Below are positions 1 to 20,362 of a DNA stretch of 22,010 nucleotides, piece by piece. The stretch comes from a virus, in IMG/VR virus record IMGVR_UViG_3300012954_000102, positions 1-22,010 of that record; one strand, given 5' to 3'. A model generated the notes under the pieces. It was not told where the DNA came from. It searched no databases and was given only the letters and a program-made list of their open reading frames with translations. Each line of letters opens with the position of its first letter. Within the stretch, counting starts at the first letter, position 1. The translations under genes were made by a program, and so were the position numbers.

Positions 1-3000
1 AGATGATCCTTCTACGAATAATGCGTTAGTAGCTCCTGACGATACTATGAAATCGATATCACCAGTATCACCAAACGTAATCATGTCTTGTGAATCATCT
101 TCTAGTATTCGTATAAATTGTTCACCACCTACATGGAACTCCATTCTATCATTACCTACTACCCATTTTGTATCATCGTCTTGGTAGTGAGCCATTGTCC
201 AGTCAGTTGTAGGATTTTCTTCTCCTACGAACATGTTACCCTTAATCGTTGTAGTATTACTTGAACTTACTGTCAACGAACCTGTTATTCTAACTGAACC
301 TGAAACCTCCAGTGTTGAGTTAGGTGTATATATTCTACCTAAAGCGGTTTTGAATCCTGCGGTACCGTTTCCAATAACCATCGAGTTACTTGCACTTACT
401 ATAGAATGATTACCTAGTGCTATAGAGTTATTTATAGCTGCTGTACCATCTATATGTGTTGGTGCATCTGATCCACTTCCTATAAATATATTTGCACTAC
501 CAGTTGAATTAAGACCGGCTTGGAATCCAATTGCTATATTAGCATCAAGATTCATTTCTCGAGCTAACGCTCCCTCACCAATAGCAATATTGTAATCTCC
601 TTTAACTAATCGGTTAGCAGCGTCGAATCCGGCAACAAAGTTTCTTCTACCTGTTGTAAGTGAAGGTGCAGCATCTGCTCCTAAAACTACGTTGTATTCA
701 CCTGAGGTTATATTAGGTGCTACATTATTACCGATAGCAACGTTTCCATCACCAGTAACTACTCCTGTGTTAGCAGCTTGACCAACAAATATGTTTAGAT
801 TTCCAGTTGTTAGATTTGTACCTGCTCTATTACCTAAAACAACGTTATAGTCTCCGGACGTTAAATCTCCTAGAGCATCTCTACCTAAAGCGATGTTATC
901 GTCTCCTGTTACTACTCCTACTCCCATAGAACCAGATCCGATAGCAATATTTCTTTGTCCTGATGTTAAGTTAAGACCAGTTTGTGATCCCAGTGCAATA
1001 TTATCATCTCCAGTTACTATACCAAATGCTAGAGCATGATGACCAACAGCAATATTTCTTTGAACAGTACCTCCAGCTGCTTTTCCAAGAGCTAAGGTAC
1101 CTAAGGCTATATTATTAACACCATCAGTTAGATCAGACATAACACTAGTACCCATACCAATGTTATATGTTCCTGAATCTATATCAGTACCTGCTTCTCT
1201 ACCTAGCAATATGTTTCGGAATCCATCAGTTATAGCATCACCTGATGATTTTCCTAGTAATATATTCGCGGCTCCTGTAGTTAAGCTTGAACCTGCTTCA
1301 CGACCAATTGCAATATTATCATCACCTGATGTATCGCCATTATACATTGCTTGATAACCAATAGCAACATTCCAGTGACCATCATCAACTGAATCTCGCA
1401 TTGCTTCCCATCCTAATGCAACGTTACCTATATTATTGGTTGCCTCTTTCATTGAACCGGAACCGATTGCGATGTTGTTACCACCTGTCGTATTATCTTC
1501 TAGAGCGAAATTCCCTATTGCTATATTATCATGACTAGAATTTGAAGCCATCGCCATAGAACCTGATCCTATAGCAATATTAGATTTAGCAGTTGTAAAC
1601 TCGAGTCCTACACGATGTCCGATAGCAATATTACTACTAAAATTACCGTTAGCAGCTCTCATAGCATAAGGTCCTATTGCAGTATTATAAGAACCGCCTC
1701 CGATCTGACCAGACAGTGCTTCTGTTCCTACTGCGACGTTTGCAACAGTTTCAGCTGCTGCAGTAAGTGCACTCGATCCAATAGCAATATTTTCCGCTCC
1801 TGACGTTAATACTGCTAACGCTTCGGTACCAAAACCTATATTTTTATCACCTGTTACTATACCAGTACCTGCAGTTGAGTTTCCGATAAATACGTTCTGA
1901 CCTCCAGTAGTTAAGTTTGAAGCTGCGCTAGGTCCAACTGCTATATTATTTATTCCTGAAGTTAAGTCTTGTAAAGTCTGACCACCAATACCAATATTAT
2001 TGTCACCAGCTACATCTCCTAGACTCATTGCTTTATAACCTATAGCAATATTTTTATCACCATCGTCTGCTGATGTTGCAAAAGATTGATACCCTATTGC
2101 TATGTTACTGCGATTAGTTGTTACACTAGCAGCTGATCCTGAACCTATAGCTATATTATTTATTCCTGAAGTTAAATCTTCTAGCGCAAAGTTACCTATT
2201 GATATATTGTCATTACCTGTTACCGTTCCTAGTCCCATTGAACCGGACCCAACTGCTATATTTGATATACCAGTAGTTAAATTACCGGCTGCTAACCTAC
2301 CTAATGCTATATTATCAGTACCTGAAGTAATATCTTCTAGTGCTATTTTTCCAAGTGCTATATTGAAATACCCAGTAACTATTCCTGTACCCATCGCGCT
2401 AGTACCTATAGCTACATTATCAAACCCAGAAGTTAATTCTTCTGCAGTTCCTGTTCCTAATGCTACATTTCGAGCTCCTGATGTGATGTCTAGTAATGCG
2501 TTAGCTCCAATTGCTACGTTGGTAGCTCCTGTAACAACACCTGTACCCATTGCATTTGATCCGATTGCAACCTGATTGGATGCAGCTTCTGATGCATCTA
2601 GTGCTCCGAATCCAAGAGCTACATTAAATGAACCAGCAAGTAAACTCGATCCTGCTGTAGTACCCATTAAGACATTGCTAGTACCTGTAGTCATATCTTG
2701 ACCTGCATCAGTACCTATTGCTATATTTTTATCACCAGTTACTATGCCTATTCCTAAAGCGTCTTCACCTATAGCAATATTATTGTCTGCTGTAGTAAGA
2801 TTTAACGAAGCTTTATGACCTATAGAGATATTATGATGACCGGATGTTACATCTTCTAATGATACTCTACCAATCGCAATATTATCTTCTCCAGTTGCTA
2901 CTCCTGTTTTCATAGCTTCGTAACCGATAGCTATAGTATAATTGGCTGTTCCAGTTGAGTTATAAAATGCACTAGTACCTATTCCTATATTAGACTGACC

Positions 3001-4632
3001 ATCAAGAGTTTTTAACCCTGCTTGTTTTCCTATGAATACGTTAGCTCCACCAGTTGTTAAAGCTTTACCTGTATTGTACCCGACTAGTGTATTATAGTCA
3101 CCAGTAGTCATAGCCATTGCAGATTGATAACCGAAACCTATATTCGCTTCACCACCGGTAGCTGCATCAGTACCACCTGCTGAAACTCCAAAGAACATTG
3201 AAGTGTCGGCTCCAGATCCTGATACATATATCATTTTCTGATTGTTAAAATATATACCGTTTATACCATCTTTATCATGGAATGTACCAGCATTTATATC
3301 TATTGTTCTACCTTGAATTATATTTAATGATCCACTTAATTGAATCTGTTGTGGATATTGATAAGCGTTAATACTTGGAATATTAAATCCAACTTTACCT
3401 GTCTTATCTAATCTTAACGCTTCAGTATATGTACTATTAGCTACCCAAGGATTAGTATTTAGATTGTTAAGCATATTTTGAGTTCTAAATACTAATGAAC
3501 CACTCATTTGATTATTAGTTCCAGTAGAAGCACTTACTGTAGTTATTTCCCAAGCTGTTTTACCTGATTCAAAAAATAGACTGGCTGAAGTTGCAGCAGT
3601 TGCTGATTCAATTTTAGTTCTTGAATTTGTAGAAGAACTTACTACTAAATTTTCGTCTATTGTAGATCCTGATGGTACAGCTATACCGACATTATATTTA
3701 TCCTCAGTAGTAAAGAATACCGATAAGGTGTTACCGTTTACAACAAAAACATCGTCTGACTGAGTCTTATCTCTAAATCTAAAATTATCTTCTGCAGGCG
3801 TTGTATATGTTGCATACATTACCTTTCCGTTTTTCCAACCTAGACCATCATGACCTTGATCATCTATTCTTAATAAATGAGAGAATATAGGTGGAGTCGC
3901 TTGCCCTGGTTGTATAAAAGTTCCTTGAAGTTGACTTCCTGATGTTCCTATTCCTACACCGTTTAAGAAATAACTATCAGAACCTGATTGCATGATACTT
4001 CCCGTAACAAGCATTGTATCGTCGAATTGAGCTCCGAATTTAGTTGAACCACTAGTAAAAATAATTGACTCGGAAACAATCTCAGTGTGAAATTCTTGAG
4101 CGAATATTGTATCCTCAACTATAAGTGAACCGGTAATTACAACATTACCGTAAACATCTAATGCTGCATTTTCACCACCGAATCTAGGCACATTATAATA
4201 ACCACCTGTTCCGTCTTGCCCTCTGTTAACTCGTGCAGGTTTTTGATCCTCTATTCCAGGATTTTGTAAATATATGAATTTAGCTTGACCAATACTTCTA
4301 AAAGATCCTTGACATGATCCTGATACCGTAAGTGCACCTGATACCCATGCATTAGCGTGAACTTTTAATTGATCGTCACCGCAGTTATTTCCTAAGAAAG
4401 TTGAACCAGAAACCGAAAGGTGTGTATCAACTTGAACTCTAGAAACAGTTAAATGTTGTAAGTCTTGAATATTAGCTAACGAGGCATTACTCGCAGTTAT
4501 ACGGGTAACATTTAAGTCAACAATTCTTGAGCCAGTACCATCATATATTTCATGATCCTGTCCATCATATTGAACGATACGTTTGTATGTATTTTTTACT
4601 TTTTTACTACTTAAATCACCCGGATTAGCCAT
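1..4632 (-). CDS. Giant repeat-rich tail fibre/adhesin, YadA-head-like (C-terminus beyond window)
   Basis: The frame is open from ATG 4632 (AGGGAAAG ribosome site just upstream) to base 1, giving at least 1544 residues with no stop, so the C-terminus lies outside the window. Residues 1-490 are Ser/Thr/Gly-rich with recurring segments such as VSGSLTVSGS, typical of beta-structured phage fibres. Residues about 491-1424 hold some 54 imperfect 17-18-residue repeats of the form TTGxxNIAIGxxALxxL, which resemble the left-handed beta-roll repeats of YadA-type trimeric adhesin heads. After the repeats comes a second fibre-like segment (LEVSGSVRITGSLTV). No signal peptide is visible, which fits a virion protein rather than a bacterial autotransporter. 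It follows the gp15-like gene. A host-binding fibre or virion surface adhesin is inferred. The repeat architecture is directly visible, but the exact position in the virion is not. Confidence 0.8.
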   Translation of the reverse strand, partial: MANPGDLSSKKVKNTYKRIVQYDGQDHEIYDGTGSRIVDLNVTRITASNASLANIQDLQHLTVSRVQVDTHLSVSGSTFLGNNCGDDQLKVHANAWVSGALTVSGSCQGSFRSIGQAKFIYLQNPGIEDQKPARVNRGQDGTGGYYNVPRFGGENAALDVYGNVVITGSLIVEDTIFAQEFHTEIVSESIIFTSGSTKFGAQFDDTMLVTGSIMQSGSDSYFLNGVGIGTSGSQLQGTFIQPGQATPPIFSHLLRIDDQGHDGLGWKNGKVMYATYTTPAEDNFRFRDKTQSDDVFVVNGNTLSVFFTTEDKYNVGIAVPSGSTIDENLVVSSSTNSRTKIESATAATSASLFFESGKTAWEITTVSASTGTNNQMSGSLVFRTQNMLNNLNTNPWVANSTYTEALRLDKTGKVGFNIPSINAYQYPQQIQLSGSLNIIQGRTIDINAGTFHDKDGINGIYFNNQKMIYVSGSGADTSMFFGVSAGGTDAATGGEANIGFGYQSAMAMTTGDYNTLVGYNTGKALTTGGANVFIGKQAGLKTLDGQSNIGIGTSAFYNSTGTANYTIAIGYEAMKTGVATGEDNIAIGRVSLEDVTSGHHNISIGHKASLNLTTADNNIAIGEDALGIGIVTGDKNIAIGTDAGQDMTTGTSNVLMGTTAGSSLLAGSFNVALGFGALDASEAASNQVAIGSNAMGTGVVTGATNVAIGANALLDITSGARNVALGTGTAEELTSGFDNVAIGTSAMGTGIVTGYFNIALGKIALEDITSGTDNIALGRLAAGNLTTGISNIAVGSGSMGLGTVTGNDNISIGNFALEDLTSGINNIAIGSGSAASVTTNRSNIAIGYQSFATSADDGDKNIAIGYKAMSLGDVAGDNNIGIGGQTLQDLTSGINNIAVGPSAASNLTTGGQNVFIGNSTAGTGIVTGDKNIGFGTEALAVLTSGAENIAIGSSALTAAAETVANVAVGTEALSGQIGGGSYNTAIGPYAMRAANGNFSSNIAIGHRVGLEFTTAKSNIAIGSGSMAMASNSSHDNIAIGNFALEDNTTGGNNIAIGSGSMKEATNNIGNVALGWEAMRDSVDDGHWNVAIGYQAMYNGDTSGDDNIAIGREAGSSLTTGAANILLGKSSGDAITDGFRNILLGREAGTDIDSGTYNIGMGTSVMSDLTDGVNNIALGTLALGKAAGGTVQRNIAVGHHALAFGIVTGDDNIALGSQTGLNLTSGQRNIAIGSGSMGVGVVTGDDNIALGRDALGDLTSGDYNVVLGNRAGTNLTTGNLNIFVGQAANTGVVTGDGNVAIGNNVAPNITSGEYNVVLGADAAPSLTTGRRNFVAGFDAANRLVKGDYNIAIGEGALAREMNLDANIAIGFQAGLNSTGSANIFIGSGSDAPTHIDGTAAINNSIALGNHSIVSASNSMVIGNGTAGFKTALGRIYTPNSTLEVSGSVRITGSLTVSSSNTTTIKGNMFVGEENPTTDWTMAHYQDDDTKWVVGNDRMEFHVGGEQFIRILEDDSQDMITFGDTGDIDFIVSSGATNALFVEGSS
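361..3162 (-). repeat. About 54 tandem YadA-head-like 17-18-residue repeats
   Basis: Reading the minus strand, the motif N-[IV]-[AGSV]-[IVLF]-G recurs about every 51-54 bases, usually preceded by T-[TS]-G or V-T-G and followed by a small/Ala/Leu segment. I counted about 54 copies by eye. Many copies differ at DNA level, so these are old, diverged protein repeats rather than a fresh tandem array. Within the array, repeats that start with VTG return most often every third or fourth unit, suggesting expansion by blocks of about three repeats. The motif matches the head repeats of trimeric autotransporter adhesins, known to form a beta-roll. Confidence 0.88.
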
Positions 4633-7959: not shown

Positions 7960-8010
7960 TTATTATCTCCTAAAACTTTTATATAAGTAGGTAAGTCTAG
8001 CAGTAACCAA

Positions 8011-8063: not shown

Positions 8064-9797
8064 TTACAGAGTATGTAATCCTCTTACATTGATCTTACCA
8101 TAGAATTCAGGTCGTACAATTCGTTTAGCGTAACGAGTCATAACACCTTTTCTAGGAGTAAAGTTAGTTGGGTCATAGATTAGTGGAGTCATAATCAATG
8201 GTACATATGGAGCATAAACTGCACCAGTTTCCAAGAATTGATTTCCTCTAAAGCCCATTAAGATTGTGTTTGCTTGAACGTAAGGATTTTTGTAAACAGT
8301 AAATCTGTTGTTTAATTGTCCTACTTTCTGAACACCCATTGCAAATGAAGATGAGTTACCATCTGTATCAGCAGCATATCCTGGAATTGATTCTAGGATT
8401 GTTGCAACGTCTGGAGAACATACTAACCAGTTAGCACCTCCTCGCATAGTTTTTGCGTGAATCTTGTTCGAAACTTTTTGTATTTTAGTACCTAAAGTTT
8501 GGAACCAAGTTCCTTGGTTGTAAGCTTCACCAGTGTTAGCAGTTGCAAATACGTTGTTTCCATCGTATTTTTCACCGATTGTTACTGACCAGTTTTCTTC
8601 AACTAATGCATTGTTCATTAACATGTCTAAGATTTCTAAATCAATCTCTTGTGAGATGTACTCAGATAACATAGAAGTTAATTCCGCTTCAGCATCGATT
8701 GAGTGATAAGCATTTAAGTCTTGCGCGAACTCTGGAGTCCAAACAGCTTTTAGCTTTCTAGTTTTAGCAACAATAGCAATTGATTTCATTTCCAAGTTAA
8801 TTTCTGGAATTGCAATATCAGCAGCACCACCTGTAGCAGTTTGTCTTAACGTACCATCATCTTCGAAGTCACCTCTTGTAGTATCAGTTGGTTTAACTGG
8901 GAACGTAAAGAAGTAAGTATCGTCAGTACCTGAAGTAACGCCTGAACCTGATATAATGAACTGAACGTGAGTTGCATCGTCTGGCTGTACTTCAACACCT
9001 GATGAGTTAGTTAATTTAGTAAATTCAGAGAACTGAGCTTTTACTACACCTGTAGTAGCATTACCTAATCTCCAAGACTTAACTGCGTCTAAGTCGTAAG
9101 TTGCATCAGATACACCGTTTTCACGTACTTCAGATAAAGCAGCTAGTACAGTATGTACTCGGTGAGCTTTTACATTTACACCACCACCTAATGTAGTACC
9201 ACCGTGGAACTGTCCAGCATATGATTGAGAGAATACAGTGTTGAAGTTGTAGTCTATCGCATCTAATGCACCAGTTACAGCAGTCTTGTCTCTAGAAGAA
9301 GATACCATGTTGATCGAGTATCCATATCGTCCTGATCCGTAAAGACCTTCAGTAGGATCACCTTTAGCTTTCGTTTCACCGAAAACTGAATCTTTTTGTG
9401 AATCTTTTCCTGAGTTAGTTGTAAATCCAGTACCATTGTCTGTTCCATACTTGTAATCCAAGTAGAAAATTAGACCTGATGGTAAATTCATTGGTTGAAC
9501 CGAAACAAATTCCTTTGCTGCGATCTCGGCGAATACTCTTCGAACTAAAGGTAATGCAACACCTGACCACTCTTCCGAGTTTGATGCTGTACCTGTTCTT
9601 GAAGCTTCGTCGATAAGTTGTTTAGCTTGGTTTTCTAATAAGATAGCCATACCATGCTTTTCATATTCGTTGTCTAAACCTTCTAATAGACCAGTTCTGT
9701 TCCACTTTGATACAATGCCTTTTGTTTCAGCTAATTGTGCACGGTGGTTGTTACTAGTATTAGCAAGGATAGAGCCAACTGTAGTTTCTTTTGCCAT
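8064..9797 (-). CDS. 23: Major capsid protein, gp23-like
   Basis: This 577-residue protein is the shell subunit of the head. The N-terminal region (residues 28-64, with IVSKWNRTGLLEGL and GMAILLENQAKQLIDE) and the following block GVALPLVRRVFAEIAAKEFV are characteristic of T4-type gp23. T4 gp23 is 521 residues. A likely prohead-protease site is IDE|AS after Glu64, close to the Glu65 cleavage of T4 gp23, which would leave a mature protein of about 513 residues. A Gly/Thr-rich central segment (about 270-325) is the kind of region where accessory surface domains sit. The ATG at 9797 has AAGGAGA at ideal spacing, 18 bases after the scaffold stop, and the gene is followed by a strong terminator. 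This suits high expression of a scaffold-capsid unit. Confidence 0.96.
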   Translation of the reverse strand: MAKETTVGSILANTSNNHRAQLAETKGIVSKWNRTGLLEGLDNEYEKHGMAILLENQAKQLIDEASRTGTASNSEEWSGVALPLVRRVFAEIAAKEFVSVQPMNLPSGLIFYLDYKYGTDNGTGFTTNSGKDSQKDSVFGETKAKGDPTEGLYGSGRYGYSINMVSSSRDKTAVTGALDAIDYNFNTVFSQSYAGQFHGGTTLGGGVNVKAHRVHTVLAALSEVRENGVSDATYDLDAVKSWRLGNATTGVVKAQFSEFTKLTNSSGVEVQPDDATHVQFIISGSGVTSGTDDTYFFTFPVKPTDTTRGDFEDDGTLRQTATGGAADIAIPEINLEMKSIAIVAKTRKLKAVWTPEFAQDLNAYHSIDAEAELTSMLSEYISQEIDLEILDMLMNNALVEENWSVTIGEKYDGNNVFATANTGEAYNQGTWFQTLGTKIQKVSNKIHAKTMRGGANWLVCSPDVATILESIPGYAADTDGNSSSFAMGVQKVGQLNNRFTVYKNPYVQANTILMGFRGNQFLETGAVYAPYVPLIMTPLIYDPTNFTPRKGVMTRYAKRIVRPEFYGKINVRGLHTL

Positions 9798-9815
9798 TTT
9801 CTTATCTCCTTGATA

Positions 9816-11012
9816 TTATTTTGTTAATCCGGCTAGTTTCTTAAATCTAGAAGCCATATCAGCACCTTCAGAAATAATTGCTTTCTTAGGCTTTGTAGAT
9901 GCTACTGCCTTAGATGCAAATCCTTCTTTGATTGATTTTCTTCTAGTTGATTTCGGCGCAATCTGAGATTCTGCTAAAGTAGTGTAAACTAATTTAACTT
10001 CTCTAGTCGATTTTGCTCTATCAAAAGTTTCTATTACTTTTAATTTTTGACTTTCATTCAAGTTACCATTTCTAAATAATTTGTTAGTAAATAACAATTT
10101 AGCATTTAGTAAGTTAACTTCATTGATTTTGCTTCGTAAGAATTTTACTACTTTGTAAGATTCTTCAAGCTTCTCAGTTAAGTTGTTGATCGTTTCCGAC
10201 TCACCTTCCATACCGTCTTCAGATTCATCTAACTCTTCCTCTTCACGTAGAGATTTAATAACTTCCTCTAGGTCGATGTCTTCGTCTTCACGCATACCTT
10301 CGTCCATGTGGTCGTCTTCTTCCTCATGTAAATTATCTAAAGTTTCTGATTCACCTTCCATACCGTCTTCTGACTCAGATACAACTTTTACGCCATCACC
10401 TTCTTGATCGTCAGTGTAGCCGTCAGCTGCTTTTGCATCAGGTGCTTTGTTATCGGCAGTACCGATACCAGATGATACATCGTTACTTTCATCAAGTTCG
10501 TCATGTTCACCTTCTTCGATTTCGTCTTCAAGCTCTTTAATAATAGCTTCTAGCTCTAAATCGTCTTCTTCAGCAATAGCGTGCTCGTCGTCTCGCATTT
10601 CGTCCATATCGTGCTCACCTTCTTCCATGTCTTCTTCGTCTTCGTGCATGCCTTCGTGGTGTCCCTCGTCATGAGTTTCATCCTCTTCTTCACGCATCCC
10701 GCCTTCTTCCATGTCGTGCTCATCTTCTCGCATCTCGTCCATGTCGTCTTCTTCTTCACGCATTTCATCCATGTCATGCTCGTCTTCTCGCATTTCATCC
10801 ATATCGTGTTCAGTTTCGTCCATATCTCTCATTTCATCCATATCCTCATCTTCTCTCATTTCATCTACATCCGCTTCTTCGCGAATTTTAGCTGAAATCA
10901 TAGACTGAAGTTTTGGAGTGAAAGCTTCTTCAAGTGCAAGTTTAGCATTAGCAAGAGCAGTTTTACGAACAGCTTTAGCATCAGCGATTGCTTCTTTTAA
11001 TAGATCATTCAT
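9816..11012 (-). CDS. 22: Prohead core scaffold protein, gp22-like, very acidic
   Basis: A 398-residue protein placed directly before the capsid gene, as T4 gp22 is. Residues 1-45 (AFTPKLQSMISAKI) and residues 285-350 (FLRSKINEVNLLNAKLLF and LKVIETFDRAKSTREVKLVY) resemble scaffold proteins of marine T4-like phages. Between them, residues 46-262 are extraordinarily Asp/Glu-rich, with His, Met and Arg, and repeat a unit such as DMDEMREDEH. T4 gp22 is 269 residues, so the acidic domain accounts for much of the extra length. Scaffolds of this type fill the prohead core and are cut to peptides by the gp21 protease. Candidate sites of the form [LI]xE| include ISE|G near residue 382 and LAE|S near 348. 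The ATG at 11012 has AAGGAGA. A promoter-like motif lies 121 bases upstream, just after a terminator. Confidence 0.88.
   Translation of the reverse strand: MNDLLKEAIADAKAVRKTALANAKLALEEAFTPKLQSMISAKIREEADVDEMREDEDMDEMRDMDETEHDMDEMREDEHDMDEMREEEDDMDEMREDEHDMEEGGMREEEDETHDEGHHEGMHEDEEDMEEGEHDMDEMRDDEHAIAEEDDLELEAIIKELEDEIEEGEHDELDESNDVSSGIGTADNKAPDAKAADGYTDDQEGDGVKVVSESEDGMEGESETLDNLHEEEDDHMDEGMREDEDIDLEEVIKSLREEEELDESEDGMEGESETINNLTEKLEESYKVVKFLRSKINEVNLLNAKLLFTNKLFRNGNLNESQKLKVIETFDRAKSTREVKLVYTTLAESQIAPKSTRRKSIKEGFASKAVASTKPKKAIISEGADMASRFKKLAGLTK
10201..10370 (-). repeat. Duplicated 20-bp segment within scaffold gene
   Basis: The plus-strand sequence TCACCTTCCATACCGTCTTC occurs at 10201-10220 and again at 10351-10370, exactly 150 bases apart and in frame. 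The protein copies are ESEDGMEGESET at residues about 213-224 and 263-274. This looks like an internal duplication of a 50-residue block in the acidic domain. Confidence 0.85.
10698..10865 (-). repeat. Acidic decapeptide repeats in scaffold gene
   Basis: Residues 50-105 of the scaffold repeat Asp-Met-Asp-Glu-Met-Arg-Glu-(Asp/Glu)-Glu-(His/Asp) about five times with small changes. At DNA level the plus strand repeats CATTTCATCCATATC-like blocks about every 30 bases. The low complexity also produces long Ser-rich and hydrophobic reading frames on the opposite strand, which are artefacts. Confidence 0.85.
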
Positions 11013-11132
11013 TGTCTATTCTCCTTAAATTTGATTGTGGAAATAAGAATATTCGGATTCTTAATAGTAATTAGTTTCTATATATTTCACACTACATAAG
11101 ATAGCTTAAGAAAAGCGTAGTGTATTCTTATC

Positions 11133-11148: not shown

Positions 11149-11177
11149 AAAAAAAGAGAAACCACTCGGATTTCTCT
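11149..11177 (-). terminator. Intrinsic terminator after bS21 gene
   Basis: On the minus strand AGAGAAATCC pairs with GGTTTCTCT across a four-base loop (GAGT) with one bulged T, followed by seven T. It starts about 25 bases past the bS21 stop. It separates the terminase-to-bS21 block from the scaffold-capsid block. Confidence 0.82.
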
Positions 11178-11201: not shown

Positions 11202-11573
11202 TTATTGTGCTTTTCCATTGATAACCGCGACCCAAACCTGTTTACTCTCACGTTTTATGTCACGGATCGTTGTTTTACTCTGGATAGCTTTAGTACGTTT
11301 TCTAGCCTCATACTTTAATTTACTTGGTTTAGTGTACCTTCTCCTTTCTTTAAGTTCTCCTAGAACATCAGTCTGTTTCATCATTTTTTTGAAACGTTTT
11401 AATGCTTGTTCTATATTTCCATCAGGTACTTTGATACCTTTAGGAACTCCTGGTATTTGGAAGTCGGCTCGAGTTAATCTCTTTCTTCGCTTAAAGTTTT
11501 TCTTTTTGTTGCCGTGATTTCTTGTGTTCGTATCAGATTGATTACGATGTTTTTGATTTCTGGTGTAAGCCAT
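11202..11573 (-). CDS. rpsU: Ribosomal protein bS21 homologue with extensions
   Basis: A 123-residue, strongly basic protein. Residues 46-100 (GIKVPDGNIEQALKRFKK, then TDVLGELKERRRYTKPS and a Lys/Arg-rich helix) align with bacterial bS21, whose usual length is about 60-70 residues. bS21 sits on the 30S platform next to the 3' end of 16S rRNA and affects initiation. Here there is an added N-terminal tail of about 45 residues rich in Asn, Arg and Lys, and about 20 extra C-terminal residues ending VWVAVINGKAQ. Phages are known to encode bS21 more often than most other ribosomal proteins, so this probably replaces or competes with the host copy. The gene lies between protease-linked genes and the scaffold gene and precedes a terminator. 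Unlike most neighbours it lacks a clear Shine-Dalgarno: the bases before ATG 11573 are A/T-rich (AAAATATATCGA). Confidence 0.9.
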   Translation of the reverse strand: MAYTRNQKHRNQSDTNTRNHGNKKKNFKRRKRLTRADFQIPGVPKGIKVPDGNIEQALKRFKKMMKQTDVLGELKERRRYTKPSKLKYEARKRTKAIQSKTTIRDIKRESKQVWVAVINGKAQ

Positions 11574-11637
11574 TCGATATATTTTAGATTATTACTTAAT
11601 TTATATTAAATATACGAAAAATAATTTAAGGAAACAA

Positions 11638-12066: not shown

Positions 12067-12699
12067 CTAATCTACTGGACAGCAACCTTTCATTTCACAA
12101 AGGATGTCTCTGATAATTGTATTTACTTTGTCGTAACTTTGATTTTTATTAACCCCTTCAGCTATAACTCCTTCGTTTACTCCTATAGGTTTCATAAAAG
12201 CACCATGCGTTGATGGATTACTTACAAAATCCCAACATATAAGTTCAAAATCGTCTTCGACTGCTACTGTACCTTCTCCTAACTCTTTTACTGATCCTAA
12301 CCCTCTTGAGCTAATGCCAAGTAGTATACCAGCTTTTAGTAATTCTTTTAATATATTACCAGATGGTGTCGATAAAATTTCTACCTTACCAACTACATCG
12401 TCTCCGTTCCACCAACAGTCTAATATATTATGAGAAACGTTATTTAAGTTAACTACTGATGATTCTGGATGATCTAATTCACCGAGTGCACGTTTTTCAG
12501 CTATTTGTATTTTTTTATATTGAGCAACTTCTCTAGCTAGAATATCTTTAGGATAAATTCTACCATTTTGATTTTTAGCTCCGGATCTTTGTAAAACACC
12601 CTCTACTATAACTCGTCCATCATTATTAGATATAGATTCGTTAATCTGTTGAGGAGTTACTTGGAACGGTATATAATCTACTAGTACTTGCTTTGCCAT
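12067..12699 (-). CDS. 21: Prohead maturation protease, gp21-like
   Basis: This 210-residue protein is the serine protease that cleaves scaffold and capsid proteins during head maturation. Family signatures are visible: GRIYPKDIL at residues 46-54, RALGELDHPE at 70-79 with the probable catalytic His77, and LLGISSRGLGS at 126-136 with the catalytic Ser at 130 or 131. T4 gp21 is 212 residues, so the length matches. The C-terminal tail has three Cys (CEMKGCC). The start codon overlaps the stop of the previous gene in TAATG, indicating translational coupling, and GGGAT upstream is only a weak ribosome site. Its probable substrates, the scaffold and capsid proteins, are encoded two genes further on. 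Confidence 0.93.
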   Translation of the reverse strand: MAKQVLVDYIPFQVTPQQINESISNNDGRVIVEGVLQRSGAKNQNGRIYPKDILAREVAQYKKIQIAEKRALGELDHPESSVVNLNNVSHNILDCWWNGDDVVGKVEILSTPSGNILKELLKAGILLGISSRGLGSVKELGEGTVAVEDDFELICWDFVSNPSTHGAFMKPIGVNEGVIAEGVNKNQSYDKVNTIIRDILCEMKGCCPVD

Positions 12700-14119: not shown

Positions 14120-15964
14120 CTATAAATTACCGTCGATTATATTACCTTCGTCGAGTAGGCCTCCGTTGTCGTCGTATTCTTTTTTTGTTTCATGAAGAGT
14201 TTCTTTTAAGACGCTCTTTGTTTTAGTTTTTGACTTTAGTGATTGTATTACATTCTTATATTTTTCACGTTTATCTTCTCTAGCTAAAGGACTATTGCCT
14301 CTAAAGTTATGCTTTAGCGGAGATTTTCCTATATCGTAAGTTTTACCTAAATCTTTGTCTCCTATAGGATCTTGACCACCAGGATGTTCAGTAGATTTAT
14401 ATTTCATACCGATATCAGGTCTTCCTACAGGTGCATCTGATGGTTCATCATAATTTTGCTGTCCTGCTGTAGCTAGATCATGAGGTGTACCGAAAGATCT
14501 TAACGTTTTCGAAGGATCATTACCTTCTTGCTCAATTTGAGACTGTCTAAATTTGAGTTTCAGGTCTGCAATAACGTTTTCACGCTCATGAGCCCATGCA
14601 CCGTCACCCATATTCATGATATTTTCGTAAATCCATTCGTCAGAAAGTAGTTTTGATTGTTGAATATCAGTAGCAAGTCTAATTTTCTCTTGCCATATAG
14701 AGATTTTTTCTTGTTCGTATACTGTTGATGGAGTAGTTAGGTTAAGTTCAAAATTTACTAGATCTTCATCCTTAAATCCTTGTGTGTATAAGTGAACTAT
14801 AGCTATTTTAGTAAGCTCCGATACTGCGATTCGCTGTAATCTTTCAATAGTACGAGCAAAACGTATATCTTCAGCTGCTAAAGTTGCTTTACCTTCTACT
14901 TGTTCATCATATCCTAAAAAGGCTTTAGGAACTCGTAAAGCTGACATCATTTTATTTTTAAGATATTCGATATCATCTATAGCGTTAAAGTCTAACCCTT
15001 GTACTGACTCTATTCCTGTACCTGATTCACCTCCTCGTGTAGGAAGGTAAAAATCTTCCATCATATTTTGCATATTAAATTTAAGATTGTATTCTCCTGT
15101 GGTTTGATCTACATAAGGAACCTTTTTCATCTTATCTATAATAGCTTGCATGTATTGGTCAACTTCATTCGGTGGTATATTACCAACATCTATCTTAAAT
15201 ATTCTTTTTTCAGGTGCACGCATAATTCTATGAATCATCATTGCGTCCTCCATCATAGTAAGCTGCTTCCAAGTCTTTCTAGCTGGTTCTATCATTGATT
15301 TACCGTACGGTAGAAAGTTAGCATCACTTAATAAACGAAAATGAGCTATTTCGAAGTTTTGGTACTCAATATTCCCACCTTGACCATCTTGTTTGAATAT
15401 TACCTTGTAAGGATCTTGTGGGTCTTCACCTTCTTCTCTAGTCATCTCGTAAGATGAAAGAGGTACTACATTTACAACCCCATATCCCTCTGCAATATCT
15501 AATTTTAAGAAAAAGTCACCATATTTACACATGTTTCGTACCCATGGCCATAAGTTAAATTCGATATTACAGATATCATAAAATAAATTATGTAATATTT
15601 TTTGAACATTTTCGTTCTGACAAGTTATCGTAAGTACTTGATCGAATTCGTTCTTCATTGTTGATTCATCTGAGTATATATCTAAAGCTGATGATATAAT
15701 AGCGTCTGAATCCATCGATTCGTAATCAGTATATAGTTCATTTTTGTTATATGAGAAATTTTGCATAGCAGGTGTACCGTATCCAAAATTAACGTTAGTT
15801 TTTCTTAATTTTGAAAATCTATCTACTCCCATAGTAACTGTGTTACCCATCGATTGAAGTCTAGAGGTATCCTTTACCTTTAACTTTCTACCACCAACGT
15901 TTCTTACCACTACGTTACTGCTAAATAGTTTCTGCAATCTAGAAAATATTGTTTTATCTGCCAT
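14120..15964 (-). CDS. 20: Portal protein, gp20-like
   Basis: This 614-residue protein forms the dodecameric portal through which DNA enters and leaves the head. Typical gp20-family blocks are MDSDAIISSALDIYSDES (residues 84-101), WPWVRNMCKYGDFFLKLDI (139-157), LPYGKSMIEPARKTWKQL (218-235) and RAPEKRIFKIDV (249-260), followed by a YLKNKMMSALRVPKAFLGYD block that includes the KMMSALRVP signature. T4 gp20 is 524 residues. The excess is mainly a polar C-terminal tail of about 110 residues, rich in Gly, Pro, Asp and Lys, and probably disordered. The ATG at 15964 has AGAGGAA upstream and lies 23 bases after the terminase stop, so the two are likely one transcript. T4 places sheath and tube genes between these two; here there is no room for them. 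Confidence 0.95.
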   Translation of the reverse strand: MADKTIFSRLQKLFSSNVVVRNVGGRKLKVKDTSRLQSMGNTVTMGVDRFSKLRKTNVNFGYGTPAMQNFSYNKNELYTDYESMDSDAIISSALDIYSDESTMKNEFDQVLTITCQNENVQKILHNLFYDICNIEFNLWPWVRNMCKYGDFFLKLDIAEGYGVVNVVPLSSYEMTREEGEDPQDPYKVIFKQDGQGGNIEYQNFEIAHFRLLSDANFLPYGKSMIEPARKTWKQLTMMEDAMMIHRIMRAPEKRIFKIDVGNIPPNEVDQYMQAIIDKMKKVPYVDQTTGEYNLKFNMQNMMEDFYLPTRGGESGTGIESVQGLDFNAIDDIEYLKNKMMSALRVPKAFLGYDEQVEGKATLAAEDIRFARTIERLQRIAVSELTKIAIVHLYTQGFKDEDLVNFELNLTTPSTVYEQEKISIWQEKIRLATDIQQSKLLSDEWIYENIMNMGDGAWAHERENVIADLKLKFRQSQIEQEGNDPSKTLRSFGTPHDLATAGQQNYDEPSDAPVGRPDIGMKYKSTEHPGGQDPIGDKDLGKTYDIGKSPLKHNFRGNSPLAREDKREKYKNVIQSLKSKTKTKSVLKETLHETKKEYDDNGGLLDEGNIIDGNL

Positions 15965-15987: not shown

Positions 15988-17568
15988 TTATTTCAAAAGC
16001 CATGTAAGATCTTCATCACCTTTTGGCCCTCGTTGAATCCAAGGATTATTATCAAGTCTATTACCTGTATAAACACCAGCACCTCGGTTTACTGATATAT
16101 TATTTAATGCGCTCTTTGTTAAATCCATACCTTTTTGACGAAGCATAAGAGCGGTGTCTCTAACCCACATTCCTATACTGTAAGCCATTACAAGGTCATC
16201 GTTGTAACCGCCTTGCGCTTGAGCTTTACTTCCTTTCCATACGAAAACAAATAGTTCATCGATCAAACGTTTTGACCGGACTATACATGCCTTCTCCCTA
16301 AAATAGGTATCTAGCTTTGATATAATTAGTGGTCTCGTCTTCGAAGTAGTCGTAAATCCTGGAACCATCTTATCTTTAGTTTTTAAGTCGTATCGCTTCT
16401 TAAGCTGCTGACCAGTATCTACTACGGATAGGTCTGCTGAAGAATAAAATAAGTTTGGATACTCTCTATCTACTGCTGCTTGAATAGCTGCCCACCCTAC
16501 ATTAGCGTTTTCAATAACTAACAAGGCGTTGTTCCATTCTGTAGCAGTATTTACTAACATATTACCAAAATCTTTAGTTGGAAGTTGACCCTTATATTCT
16601 GCTACTTGAGCTAAGGTCTCGACATCTATAACATGAAACGTACTATAGTCACTTGAATCACCACGAGCAACATCGGCTGCTATCATATAGTCTTTAGAGT
16701 AATCAGGATATTCCCATAACCAATAATTTCCATCGAATCCACGTTTTTCTATAGGCTCTTGTACCTGCTGTTCTAGATACCACTGAAGTATTGTACCATC
16801 AACTACTGTATAACCTGAAGTAATAAAATCGCAATCACATTCTTGTGCTGCCATTTTTTCTCCAAGTAACTGGTCTTGTTTTGCTCTCCAGTCTTGCTCA
16901 CGATCTGGGTGTAATGTCCAGTGCAGTTTTATTGGATTAAATCCGTTAGTACCTGCTTCTGCTCCTACCCATGTTTTGTGAAAGAAGTTACCTGTTCCAT
17001 TAGGAGTAGATAATACTATAGCACCACCTCCGGTAGCTAACGTTTGTTGAGAAGAAGCCCATATTTCATCTATACTATCTACGAATGCTGCTTCGTCAAT
17101 TATTAGTAGTGATAATGCTTCAGATCTACCAGCGTCACCAGAACTAGAAACTGCTTTTACTTGAGACCCATTAGAAAAGCGTAATGACAATTTATTATCT
17201 TCAACACAGTTACCTTTTAACCAGCCTGGTAAGCCATCGTGCATTACTCTAACTTTAGTAACTAAATTTTTAGCTACTTCCTGCTTTGTTGCAATTACTA
17301 AAATATTTTTATCATTATGAAATAGCATTAACCATAAAGAGTAACCAGCTGATAAAGTAGATATACCTAACTGTCGAGATTTTAGTATAACATTATAGTC
17401 ATGATCTCTTAATTCAGTTAAAGTAGTTTCTTGAAAAGGATATAAATTAAATTTTATTTTACCTTTATGAGGATGTTGTATATAACAATACTTTCTCATA
17501 AAATGTACTGGATCTTTTGCACATTTCGAAAATTCTAATTTTATTACGTCTTTTAATGATTTCTTCAT
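15988..17568 (-). CDS. 17: Large terminase subunit, gp17-like
   Basis: A 526-residue packaging motor and headful nuclease. The ATPase domain has the Walker-A-like motif KSRQLGIST at residues 63-71, Walker B LLIIDE at 154-159 and the coupling motif STPNG at 187-191. The C-terminal RNase-H-like nuclease has ADVARGDSSDYS with Asp299, VIENANVGWA with Glu353 and GYNDDLVMA with Asp457/Asp458. The adenine-binding Q motif may be FNLYPFQ near 40-46. T4 gp17 is 610 residues, so this is somewhat short but appears complete. The start at 17568 follows a weak TAGGTAG ribosome site, with a recurrent AT-rich motif 15 bases upstream. No small terminase subunit was recognised in the window. Confidence 0.97.
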   Translation of the reverse strand: MKKSLKDVIKLEFSKCAKDPVHFMRKYCYIQHPHKGKIKFNLYPFQETTLTELRDHDYNVILKSRQLGISTLSAGYSLWLMLFHNDKNILVIATKQEVAKNLVTKVRVMHDGLPGWLKGNCVEDNKLSLRFSNGSQVKAVSSSGDAGRSEALSLLIIDEAAFVDSIDEIWASSQQTLATGGGAIVLSTPNGTGNFFHKTWVGAEAGTNGFNPIKLHWTLHPDREQDWRAKQDQLLGEKMAAQECDCDFITSGYTVVDGTILQWYLEQQVQEPIEKRGFDGNYWLWEYPDYSKDYMIAADVARGDSSDYSTFHVIDVETLAQVAEYKGQLPTKDFGNMLVNTATEWNNALLVIENANVGWAAIQAAVDREYPNLFYSSADLSVVDTGQQLKKRYDLKTKDKMVPGFTTTSKTRPLIISKLDTYFREKACIVRSKRLIDELFVFVWKGSKAQAQGGYNDDLVMAYSIGMWVRDTALMLRQKGMDLTKSALNNISVNRGAGVYTGNRLDNNPWIQRGPKGDEDLTWLLK

Positions 17569-18637: not shown

Positions 18638-18648
18638 TTTTTAATCTC

Positions 18649-18972
18649 CTATAGATTTTTTTCAGCTTCAGCTAGAGCAGCTTCCAAATCAGCTATTGTT
18701 TGATCGTTCTTTTTGACGTTCTTTTTTGCATCTTTGACTTGCTTGCTTCTACCATCAGCAGTTTTGGTTAATTCGGTTAGTTCATTATTTAGTTGTTCTT
18801 TTTCAGCTTTGACTTCCTGAATTTGAGATTCTAACCTTTTAACCTCAGCATCATTTTTAGCAATTTTAGGATTGATCTTTCTTCTACCTACTGCTTTTGC
18901 TGCAAGTAAAATACCTAATATAGTGCCTATCGAGCCGACTATAAATAGTAATATCTTCTTGAATTTACTCAC
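18649..18972 (-). CDS. Small membrane-anchored coiled-coil protein (GTG start)
   Basis: A 107-residue protein with one N-terminal transmembrane segment at residues 6-27 (ILLFIVGSIGTILGILLAAK), a basic patch GRRK just after it, and a long charged coiled coil from about 35 to the end. The shape, a membrane anchor plus periplasmic or cytoplasmic coil, resembles inner-membrane spanins (Rz) and other phage envelope proteins, but no diagnostic motif is present. The start is GTG at 18972, chosen because AAAGGAGA lies at correct spacing and no ATG is better placed. It begins two bases after the previous stop, so it is part of a tight small-gene operon. Confidence 0.8.
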   Translation of the reverse strand: MSKFKKILLFIVGSIGTILGILLAAKAVGRRKINPKIAKNDAEVKRLESQIQEVKAEKEQLNNELTELTKTADGRSKQVKDAKKNVKKNDQTIADLEAALAEAEKNL

Positions 18973-18974
18973 GC

Positions 18975-19352
18975 TTACTCTCCTTTCTCAACCTTTTTAT
19001 TAGGTTGTCCAGGATTGCTCTCAATACTTCCTGGATTAAATTTATACTTTTGCTCTATATACTTATTGAAAAATTCGTAAGTCTGAGTCAGAAGTTTTTG
19101 ATTATCATCTAAAGCCTTCATAGTAGCAACTATAGTATCTCGATCGATTTTGTTTTGCTCAGGTGATTTAGCAGGGTCATTTGGTTTCATAAGTAACGGG
19201 AGATAATTAGGTAGTGATCCTAACGAAGTTTGCATATTCATTACATAATCATTCATTGACTGAACCATTTGAGTTAGCTTTTCGTCTCCTTGTTGCTCCT
19301 GTTCAAGTAGCTCGTATTGCCGTCTACGCCATTTTTTATCATCCCAAGTCAT
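18975..19352 (-). CDS. Unassigned helical protein
   Basis: A 125-residue protein that I do not recognise. It begins MTWDDKKWRRRQYELLEQEQ, a strongly charged amphipathic helix. It continues helical to about residue 102, with a Pro-containing loop at 50-65, and ends in a Pro/Asn/Gly-rich tail (NPGSIESNPGQPNKKVEKGE). No Cys, signal or membrane segment is present. It starts one base after the preceding small membrane protein gene, with GTAGGG as ribosome site, and is followed two bases later by another membrane protein gene. Partnership with the membrane neighbours is possible from context only. Confidence 0.75.
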   Translation of the reverse strand: MTWDDKKWRRRQYELLEQEQQGDEKLTQMVQSMNDYVMNMQTSLGSLPNYLPLLMKPNDPAKSPEQNKIDRDTIVATMKALDDNQKLLTQTYEFFNKYIEQKYKFNPGSIESNPGQPNKKVEKGE

Positions 19353-19353
19353 A

Positions 19354-19554
19354 TTATTGCCCTACGTTTACGCCTTTATTTGATACATGCTCACCAACGT
19401 TACCTGCAGCATATATTCCGAATACCCATTTTACGAATTCAGACCATTGTCCAAAGTCTGCTTGATTAGTAGCAACAAATACTATTGACGCTAAAAATAA
19501 AATCATTGCAAACATTAACTTTTTACTCTGTAGTTGTGTTTTTAATACCGACAT
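19354..19554 (-). CDS. Small membrane protein, holin-like candidate
   Basis: A 66-residue protein with a clear transmembrane segment at residues 13-30 (LMFAMILFLASIVFVATN) and a second, partly hydrophobic helix at about 37-52 (WSEFVKWVFGIYAAGN). Size and two-helix layout match small phage membrane proteins, including some holins, but nothing diagnostic is visible. The gene overlaps the end of the zinc-ribbon gene by 32 bases in another frame. The overlap is believable because a strong AAGGAGA ribosome site precedes ATG 19554, and the codons downstream of the overlap make a sensible membrane protein. It stops one base before the next start. Confidence 0.75.
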   Translation of the reverse strand: MSVLKTQLQSKKLMFAMILFLASIVFVATNQADFGQWSEFVKWVFGIYAAGNVGEHVSNKGVNVGQ

Positions 19555-20143
19555 TTTTATCTCCTTGTTCTAATTTTTCTAAAAGCTCGTCTTTGAACTT
19601 TTCGAATTGTTTATCTATACTTTCTTCTATTGATTTTACAGATTCTGGTAACCTCCATTTATCGATAGTTCCATCACTGTTAATAAATTCACTTTTAGTA
19701 AATTTAGCTTTTAGTAGTTCAACCTCTTTAGAAGCATCTTTAAGAAAATTCATTGAGTTTTTTCTAATAACATCTCTTTCGTATTTTTCATAAATAGGTT
19801 CCCTTTTTACATATCCTTCACATTTCATAAGAGTTTCTTCCTTAACTATACAATCGTGACATTTTCCTTCTCTTTGTATGAACTGTTTATCGAATTTAGT
19901 TGCTTTTTTGCTACATTTAGGGCATAGCGACGAATCTATTGCTTTACGTATTTTACTAAATCGTCCTACTTTAGCTTTATATCCATTTTTTTGTATCCAC
20001 TTTTGACCGTCTTTATCTACCCATGAATCGCCTATTTGACGTTCAATAGATTTTTTCTCAAAGCCTTTAGATGTTCGAGTTTGAGTTCTATGCTCTCCTC
20101 TTATCATCTCATTTATCGCTTTTACATTATTTAATTTTGCCAT
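19523..20143 (-). CDS. Zinc-ribbon protein of unknown function
   Basis: A 206-residue protein with a four-cysteine zinc-ribbon: CPKC at residues 74-77 and CHDC at 95-98. The N-terminal segment GDSWVDKDGQKWIQKNGYKA (38-57) looks like a small conserved beta unit found in phage proteins. The rest, from about 105, is charged and helical. Such ribbons bind nucleic acid or act as structural elements. No catalytic motif is visible. The ATG at 20143 follows AAAAGGT at good spacing, three bases after the stop of the 71-residue gene. A TATAAATA octamer lies 23 bases upstream and may give it its own late promoter. Confidence 0.82.
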   Translation of the reverse strand: MAKLNNVKAINEMIRGEHRTQTRTSKGFEKKSIERQIGDSWVDKDGQKWIQKNGYKAKVGRFSKIRKAIDSSLCPKCSKKATKFDKQFIQREGKCHDCIVKEETLMKCEGYVKREPIYEKYERDVIRKNSMNFLKDASKEVELLKAKFTKSEFINSDGTIDKWRLPESVKSIEESIDKQFEKFKDELLEKLEQGDKNVGIKNTTTE

Positions 20144-20146
20144 AAC

Positions 20147-20362
20147 TTACCTTTTATTGATTGATTTATTTATATGCTTTGCAACAACCTCTTCTACTGA
20201 ATCTTGTGATGGAATTAGTTTTTCGATTCTAAATTTTAACATAGGTCTGCCGTTAATAGTTGGTTGACCTTTTTCGTCAGTACCGAACTCTTTTACTACT
20301 ACTCGTTTATTCTTAAAACGACCAGTTAGTATTGTATCCCCTATGTTTATATCTATATTCAT
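20147..20362 (-). CDS. Small conserved-looking basic protein
   Basis: A 71-residue protein with a likely beta-barrel-like opening: DINIGDTILTGRFKNKRVVV (3-22), then GQPTINGRPMLKFRIEKLIP (32-51), and a basic helical tail ending NKSINKR. The 'GDTIL.GRFKNKRV' and 'NGRP.LKFRI' pattern is one I associate with small uncharacterised phage proteins. No function can be assigned. The ATG at 20362 lacks a visible Shine-Dalgarno: the leader is TACTTATATATA, which could include a -10-like element. The gene lies 35 bases after the ligase-like gene. Confidence 0.75.
   Translation of the reverse strand: MNIDINIGDTILTGRFKNKRVVVKEFGTDEKGQPTINGRPMLKFRIEKLIPSQDSVEEVVAKHINKSINKR
20167..20174 (-). promoter_or_regulatory. 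TATAAATA octamer upstream of zinc-ribbon gene
   Basis: The minus strand reads CATATAAATAAATC inside the end of the 71-residue gene, 23 bases before the zinc-ribbon ATG. The core equals the T4 late-promoter octamer and spacing is suitable. Its presence could be chance in AT-rich DNA. Confidence 0.35.

Follow-up and report, generated by a model that had tools for sequence, protein, structure and literature searches.

Which mRNAs does a phage-encoded ribosomal protein favour, and by what signal? Phage bS21 has been suspected of steering translation, and both points are unsettled in the literature that we searched. The question is raised here by a 22,010-nucleotide stretch of viral DNA (hereafter the window, meaning the whole stretch analyzed), in which a bS21 gene lies among genes preceded by Shine-Dalgarno (SD) sites. 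The initial annotation had proposed a translation takeover switch, in which phage bS21 would replace the host protein and expose the anti-SD of the ribosome.

The bS21 gene and the Shine-Dalgarno sites of the window

The open reading frame at 11202–11573 matched Pfam family PF01165 (Ribosomal_S21) with an E-value of 1.1e-12 and 47.9 bits, above the curated cutoff of 27, and PHROG 21469 (“ribosomal protein S21”), which bears out its annotation as bS21. An AlphaFold2 model of the protein was set aside (mean pLDDT 59.5). The gene is part of a T4-like head module with the order TerL, portal, protease, bS21, scaffold-like protein, major capsid protein (MCP), and PhoH (Table 1). The scaffold-like protein, for which a PHROG search returned no match, contains acidic EEDDMDEMRED-type repeats. 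Positions 1–4632 encode a very large repetitive protein with NIAIG...LTTG repeats and no match in a Pfam search, which may be a tail fibre or an adhesin-like head.

With a promoter-like element before it and a terminator after it, bS21 looks like a transcription unit of its own. Ten of 11 leaders listed for close relatives had the promoter-like element, L008 deviating in the −7 element, and so did 27 of 62 leaders family-wide, as compared to 3% in shuffles. The terminator hairpin was kept in relatives despite base changes. The start of bS21 has no SD, as the initial annotation had stated, and its pairing with the anti-SD amounts to ~0 kcal/mol. A leaderless-like or SD-independent route of translation had been suggested for this gene. 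SD independence agrees with the lack of SD pairing, but a leaderless mRNA does not agree with a predicted leader of ~28 nt; this short, AU-rich, and unstructured leader thus points to a gene that is SD-independent but not leaderless. In six relatives (L047, L057, L063, L075, L078, and L080), a terminator-like hairpin and T-run directly precede the bS21 start, and attenuation or shielding from upstream transcription is a possible role of this hairpin in the L047-type clade.

All six AGGAGA sites listed previously (for the starts at 19554, 18972, 18637, 11012, 9797, and 7959) were recovered, 11–13 nt before the starts. Across the 21 curated starts of the window, an SD-type 4-mer was present at positions −18 to −5 in 17 cases (mean of 9.8 and maximum of 16 in 2000 dinucleotide shuffles), and a strong SD in seven (shuffle mean 1.9, p = 0.0005). 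Many phage SDs were of moderate strength (−4 to −8 kcal/mol). The start at 20362, like that of bS21, had no SD.

Table 1 Features of the window, all on the minus strand, with the basis of each assignment.
Feature	Position	Strand	Basis
bS21 gene, 123 aa	11202..11573	−	Pfam PF01165, PHROG 21469, 12 IMG/VR relatives at 64–100% identity
bS21 core domain, residues 47–92	11298..11435	−	Pfam match coordinates
Basic N-terminal extension of bS21, not in host bS21	11436..11573	−	Family comparison
Ala96 codon, aligned with F. johnsoniae Tyr54 (stacks on anti-SD)	11286..11288	−	phmmer versus 7jil chain z
bS21 promoter-like element TTG-N20-TATATTTA, Bacteroidota type	11607..11637	−	Kept in relatives
Predicted bS21 leader, AU-rich, unstructured, SD-less	11574..11602	−	Start set from promoter-like element; MFE −1.4 kcal/mol
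Predicted intrinsic terminator 3′ of bS21	11155..11177	−	Terminator scan; hairpin −12.8 kcal/mol, z −3.2
Terminase large subunit (TerL)	15988..17568	−	PHROG 2, E 5.8e-44; 56.7% identical to Flavobacterium phage immuto
Portal protein	14120..15964	−	PHROG 213, E 1.7e-67
Head maturation protease	12067..12699	−	PHROG 207, E 1e-54
Scaffold-like acidic protein, between bS21 and MCP	9816..11012	−	Slot position and homology in relatives
MCP, T4 gp23-like	8064..9797	−	PHROG 138, E 3e-74
SD AGGAGA, scaffold-like gene (start 11012)	11020..11025	−	All 24 scaffold starts in bS21+ loci have a strong SD (24/24)
SD AGGAGA, MCP gene (start 9797)	9805..9810	−	Motif position; MCP SD counts in relatives
SD AGGAGA, phoH (start 7959)	7966..7971	−	phoH SD in 14/14 bS21+ loci, 0/3 without bS21
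SD AGGAGA, gene with start 18637	18645..18650	−	Motif position
SD AGGAGA (AAAGGAGAG), gene with start 18972	18979..18984	−	Motif position
SD AGGAGA, gene with start 19554	19560..19565	−	Motif position

Co-occurrence of bS21 and Shine-Dalgarno sites among relatives

SD use was confirmed to accompany bS21 beyond the window, across its relatives. These were collected in searches with bS21, with TerL, and with two MCPs, the last two chosen to catch kin without bS21. Most relatives are fragments, and the association was assessed in the 149 loci covering protease to MCP, of which 67 contained bS21 (bS21+) and 82 did not (bS21−). An SD preceded the MCP gene in 66 of the 67 bS21+ loci and in none of the 82 bS21− loci. 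The former count stood at 65 before correction of the start at L172, which was rejected as an exception because the script had picked a wrong ATG; in the dereplicated dataset, with this start uncorrected, the respective numbers were 45 of 47 and 0 of 72. L185, a bS21+ locus without an MCP SD, counts against the proposed switch. AGGAG, GGAGA, and AAGGA were among the most enriched 5-mers in bS21+ loci, with a peak at −13 to −10, and bS21− loci were flat; gene starts were taken from a simple ORF caller, the errors of which mostly dilute the SD signal. The bS21 start was SD-less in 56 of 61 distinct leaders and had an SD in five. bS21 was absent from the entire length of the long bS21− contigs (immuto, 160 kb; G023, 162 kb; G024, 183 kb; G025, 182 kb; G026, 132 kb), and a search for two other translation genes, IF3 and bS18, gave no match in either group. 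One bS21-less locus, L217, showed a moderate SD fraction (0.46), yet no MCP SD.

Related loci are not independent, and hence the independent replicates of this association number two to three only. In a tree of protease and MCP, the bS21 label takes ~3 changes, and the SD state follows at each of them. A single clade of bS21+ members was rejected (IQ-TREE and AU test, p-AU = 0.0002), and two bS21+ loci with SDs, L037 and L154, are nested in a supported group that lacks both bS21 and SDs. According to this phylogeny, there was more than one gain or loss of bS21, and SD use went along each time. The two to three evolutionary changes are thus consistent in direction, though small in number.

Timing of Shine-Dalgarno use and the probable host

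Genes were assigned to an early or a late class according to their homologues among the annotated genes of the phages immuto and Mel-JY01, and SDs were not used for this assignment. The initial annotation had suggested that an exposed anti-SD could favour late phage mRNAs. A late bias was indeed seen in six bS21+ genomes, in which SDs preceded 92 of 139 late genes but only 21 of 86 early genes (p = 9e-10). The contrast was sharp in G010 (19/23 late versus 2/17 early) and G009 (16/23 versus 3/18); it was weaker in G027 and Mel-JY01, which counts against the switch. In three bS21− genomes, SDs were at background in both classes (6/65 and 4/57). Early genes are SD-rich in T4, and the late bias is absent from cyanophage syn9; the bias is therefore not simply a matter of T4-like build, and the idea that SD use is a general late-gene trait of T4-like phages found no support in these two phages. 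In a number of relatives (L103–L121, L290–L298, and L316–L324), the −7 promoter-like element ends 3–7 nt before the ATG in many genes. Near-leaderless mRNAs are predicted for such genes, several of which are early replication genes.

The cultured phages closest to the window by TerL were Mel-JY01 (labelled as a Microcystis phage), with 58.6% identity, and Flavobacterium phage immuto, with 56.7%. Promoters were sought with the pattern TTG-N18-22-TAnnTT[T/A][G/A], which we take to be a mark of Bacteroidota sigma factors. It was enriched before genes relative to shuffles in bS21+ genomes (G009, 42 versus 7; G010, 30 versus 3; G027, 18 versus 3; Mel-JY01, 13 versus 3) as well as in bS21− genomes (immuto, 36 versus 0; G024, 26 versus 4; G025, 30 versus 5), and was not enriched in T4 (1 versus 2 in shuffles) or syn9 (2 versus 0). 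Shuffles, T4, and syn9 served as controls for this relaxed pattern, which is partly post hoc, as a strict TAnnTTTG scan had missed immuto and G010 and the pattern was set after early-gene leaders had been viewed. Based on TerL kinship and promoter enrichment, the host of the window phage is likely a member of the Bacteroidota. The initial annotation had made its argument conditional on a host from the Flavobacteriia, and the kinship with immuto and the promoters are in keeping with it. In 395 Bacteroidota genomes, spacer-like host matches were limited to short, AT-rich, and chance-like ones, save for the L096 phage contig itself, and yielded no direct link to a host. Host labels that phage contigs received from MAGs were judged unreliable, and Cli_8 itself uses SDs. 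One SD-less phage contig (L097 / G020) is binned in a MAG with SD-using genes and was probably mis-binned. In the intergenic regions of Mel-JY01 (L003 / PP395634), the strict pattern detected 17 Bacteroidota-type promoters versus 1.4 expected; these promoters look Bacteroidota-like, and the Microcystis host label is open to doubt.

Genes were SD-less in both host-control MAGs (Chitinophagaceae and Bacteroidetes). The Chitinophagaceae MAG carries an extended SD, AAAGGAGG, before rpsU (−13.2 kcal/mol). In Flavobacteriales hosts, rpsU is typically the sole SD gene (PMC9976891). The claim that genes of the host group mostly lack SDs thus holds in the two MAGs and in the published work. These data bear on an alternative explanation that we regard as unlikely, namely that the bS21+ members infect Bacteroidota-like hosts that already read SDs and have kept bS21 for some other reason. 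It would fit the fact that clade environment and the bS21/SD trait are not separated across the relatives, but in bS21+ genomes the SD level of early genes is close to that of shuffles, a state that a host reading SDs would not favour, and the SD state shifts with bS21 within a well-supported clade. Furthermore, the Bacteroidota-type promoters common to both groups argue against this explanation, and they lend no support to a switch of host phylum between bS21+ and bS21− members.

A proposed translation switch in comparison with known systems

The co-occurrence of bS21 and SDs suggests that the virus retunes host ribosomes toward its own late messages, and the comparative evidence supports a translation takeover switch well. 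The T4-like phage would meet Bacteroidota host ribosomes that hide the anti-SD and largely ignore SDs. Owing to its host-type promoter-like element, terminator, and SD-less leader, the bS21 gene is predicted to be expressed and translated by unmodified host ribosomes. Phage bS21 would then displace host bS21 on 30S subunits, for which pelagiphage bS21 in E. coli offers a precedent. Its basic N-terminal extension and, in the window clade, the absence of Tyr54 may leave the anti-SD free and aid pairing with ordinary SDs, and late structural mRNAs, with SDs beginning 10–13 nt before their start codons, would be favoured over SD-less host mRNAs. From these comparisons we infer the causal step, that phage bS21 makes host ribosomes read SDs, and we consider it probable that the full explanation holds, whereby phage bS21 replaces host bS21, frees the anti-SD, and favours SD-bearing late mRNAs. 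It also seems somewhat likely that in mid-infection this single ribosomal protein changes how the host initiates translation, turning SD-blind ribosomes into SD-reading ones while early and bS21 mRNAs stay in the SD-less mode, as a temporal switch that is gained or lost as a unit.

Bacteroidia bS21 proteins that sequester the anti-SD have the stacking residue Tyr54 and an extended SD on their own mRNA (below −13 kcal/mol). The window bS21 has Ala96 at the Tyr54 position of F. johnsoniae (phmmer alignment with 7jil chain z; the comparison of contact residues covered this position only) and a pairing energy of ~0 kcal/mol, and its close relatives have A, S, T, or G at position 54. In F. johnsoniae, Y54A increases strong-SD translation ~3-fold in vitro, and mRNAs with strong SDs are translated more in both the Y54A and the deltaC mutant, whereas a weak SD (AGGA) is helped by neither (PMC9976891). 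This lack of gain counts against the switch, given the many moderate SDs of the phages. So does position 54 itself, where roughly half of 68 distinct phage bS21 proteins retain Tyr or Phe. The residue class there does not predict SD strength and does not track SD use, and loss of Tyr54 was thus rejected as a family-wide cause. Nor can this loss be the whole mechanism, since an aromatic residue is retained in about half of the relatives that use SDs and Y54A ribosomes ignore weak SDs. The basic N-terminal extension is a better correlate of SD use than position 54. In the family, a median of 34 residues (range 14–59; net charge +5) precede the first core helix, and every member except L099, with just 14, has an extension, which is basic in most cases. 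Host bS21 and the bS21 of four huge phages have ~14 such residues with a charge of 0 to −2, and SDs are few or absent in these four phages. The bS21 phage LR756508 likewise shows little SD use, if any, which counts against the switch. A 735 kb phage (L126, LR756501) encodes a host-like bS21 that keeps Tyr54 and whose start is preceded, as in host rpsU, by AAAGGAGG.

The results from F. johnsoniae also bear on a variant that we deem improbable, in which SD mRNAs are read by bS21-less ribosomes after removal or titration of host bS21, and phage bS21 acts as a partner or restorer. Ribosomes of F. johnsoniae without bS21 or its C-terminus do prefer strong-SD mRNA, and McNutt et al. speculate that a phage protease might attack host bS21 (PMC9976891). 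However, bS21-deficient ribosomes answer only very strong SDs and perform poorly on weak-SD mRNA, whereas phage SDs are moderate; moreover, phage bS21 would oppose SD use in this variant, yet both co-occur. Although SD function is predicted here from sequence, it is very unlikely that the purine tracts serve mRNA stability or phage-protein binding instead of anti-SD pairing, with bS21 being coincidental, as the enriched 5-mers (AGGAG, GGAGA, and AAGGA) are canonical, peak sharply at SD spacing, and are absent in bS21− kin. We give equally little credence to bS21 as an ordinary auxiliary gene that tops up or speeds 30S maturation without mRNA selectivity; no other ribosomal protein is as common in phages as bS21, and its carriers infect many groups of hosts (PMC6375957, PMC9976891), but such a role leaves the near-perfect SD association and the late bias unexplained.

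As to the preferred reading, a phage bS21 that opens host ribosomes to SDs, the association names a concrete signal and its direction; the bS21− sister phages offer a natural control group, and F. johnsoniae is a genetically tractable test host. If true, this reading would amount to a virus imposing specialised ribosomes in nature and would bear on why Bacteroidota retain a normally hidden anti-SD. In the literature searched, subscription papers and preprints being outside the search, nothing was found on late genes with SDs in phages of Bacteroidota or on a link between such genes and bS21. Phage-encoded bS21 as a possible selector of phage mRNAs is already published: Chen et al. 2022 (PMC9723584) propose that the phage protein becomes part of ribosomes, where it selects phage mRNA, predict Bacteroidetes hosts, and describe bS21 and structural genes as expressed together late. 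The passages on SDs found there deal with bS21 structure and the Tyr54 argument, and an SD analysis of phage genes was not found. Their phages resemble the window in that bS21 lies within the TerL-portal-protease-MCP module and differ from it at position 54, which is aromatic in 61/61 of them and A, S, T, or G in the window clade.

Pelagiphage bS21 was shown to enter E. coli 70S ribosomes (Mizuno et al. 2019, PMC6375957); the pelagiphage has a host of another phylum, and mRNA selectivity was not shown there. E. coli ribosomes with pelagiphage bS21 were ~5% active once purified (PMC6375957), which counts against the switch. Flavobacterium phage immuto (MW353177, Immutovirus) has the same TerL/MCP family, module order, and Bacteroidota-type promoters as the window, but neither bS21 in its 160 kb nor SD use. 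McNutt et al. 2023 (PMC9976891), who speculated on a link of phage bS21 with Bacteroidia, described autoregulation by bS21-less ribosomes in F. johnsoniae. That system and the one proposed here share the principle that bS21 gates access to the anti-SD, although the phage SDs are much weaker than the SD of host rpsU. In their arrangement, the two are mirror images: host rpsU is the SD gene, whereas the phage bS21 gene is SD-less and the late genes carry the SDs.
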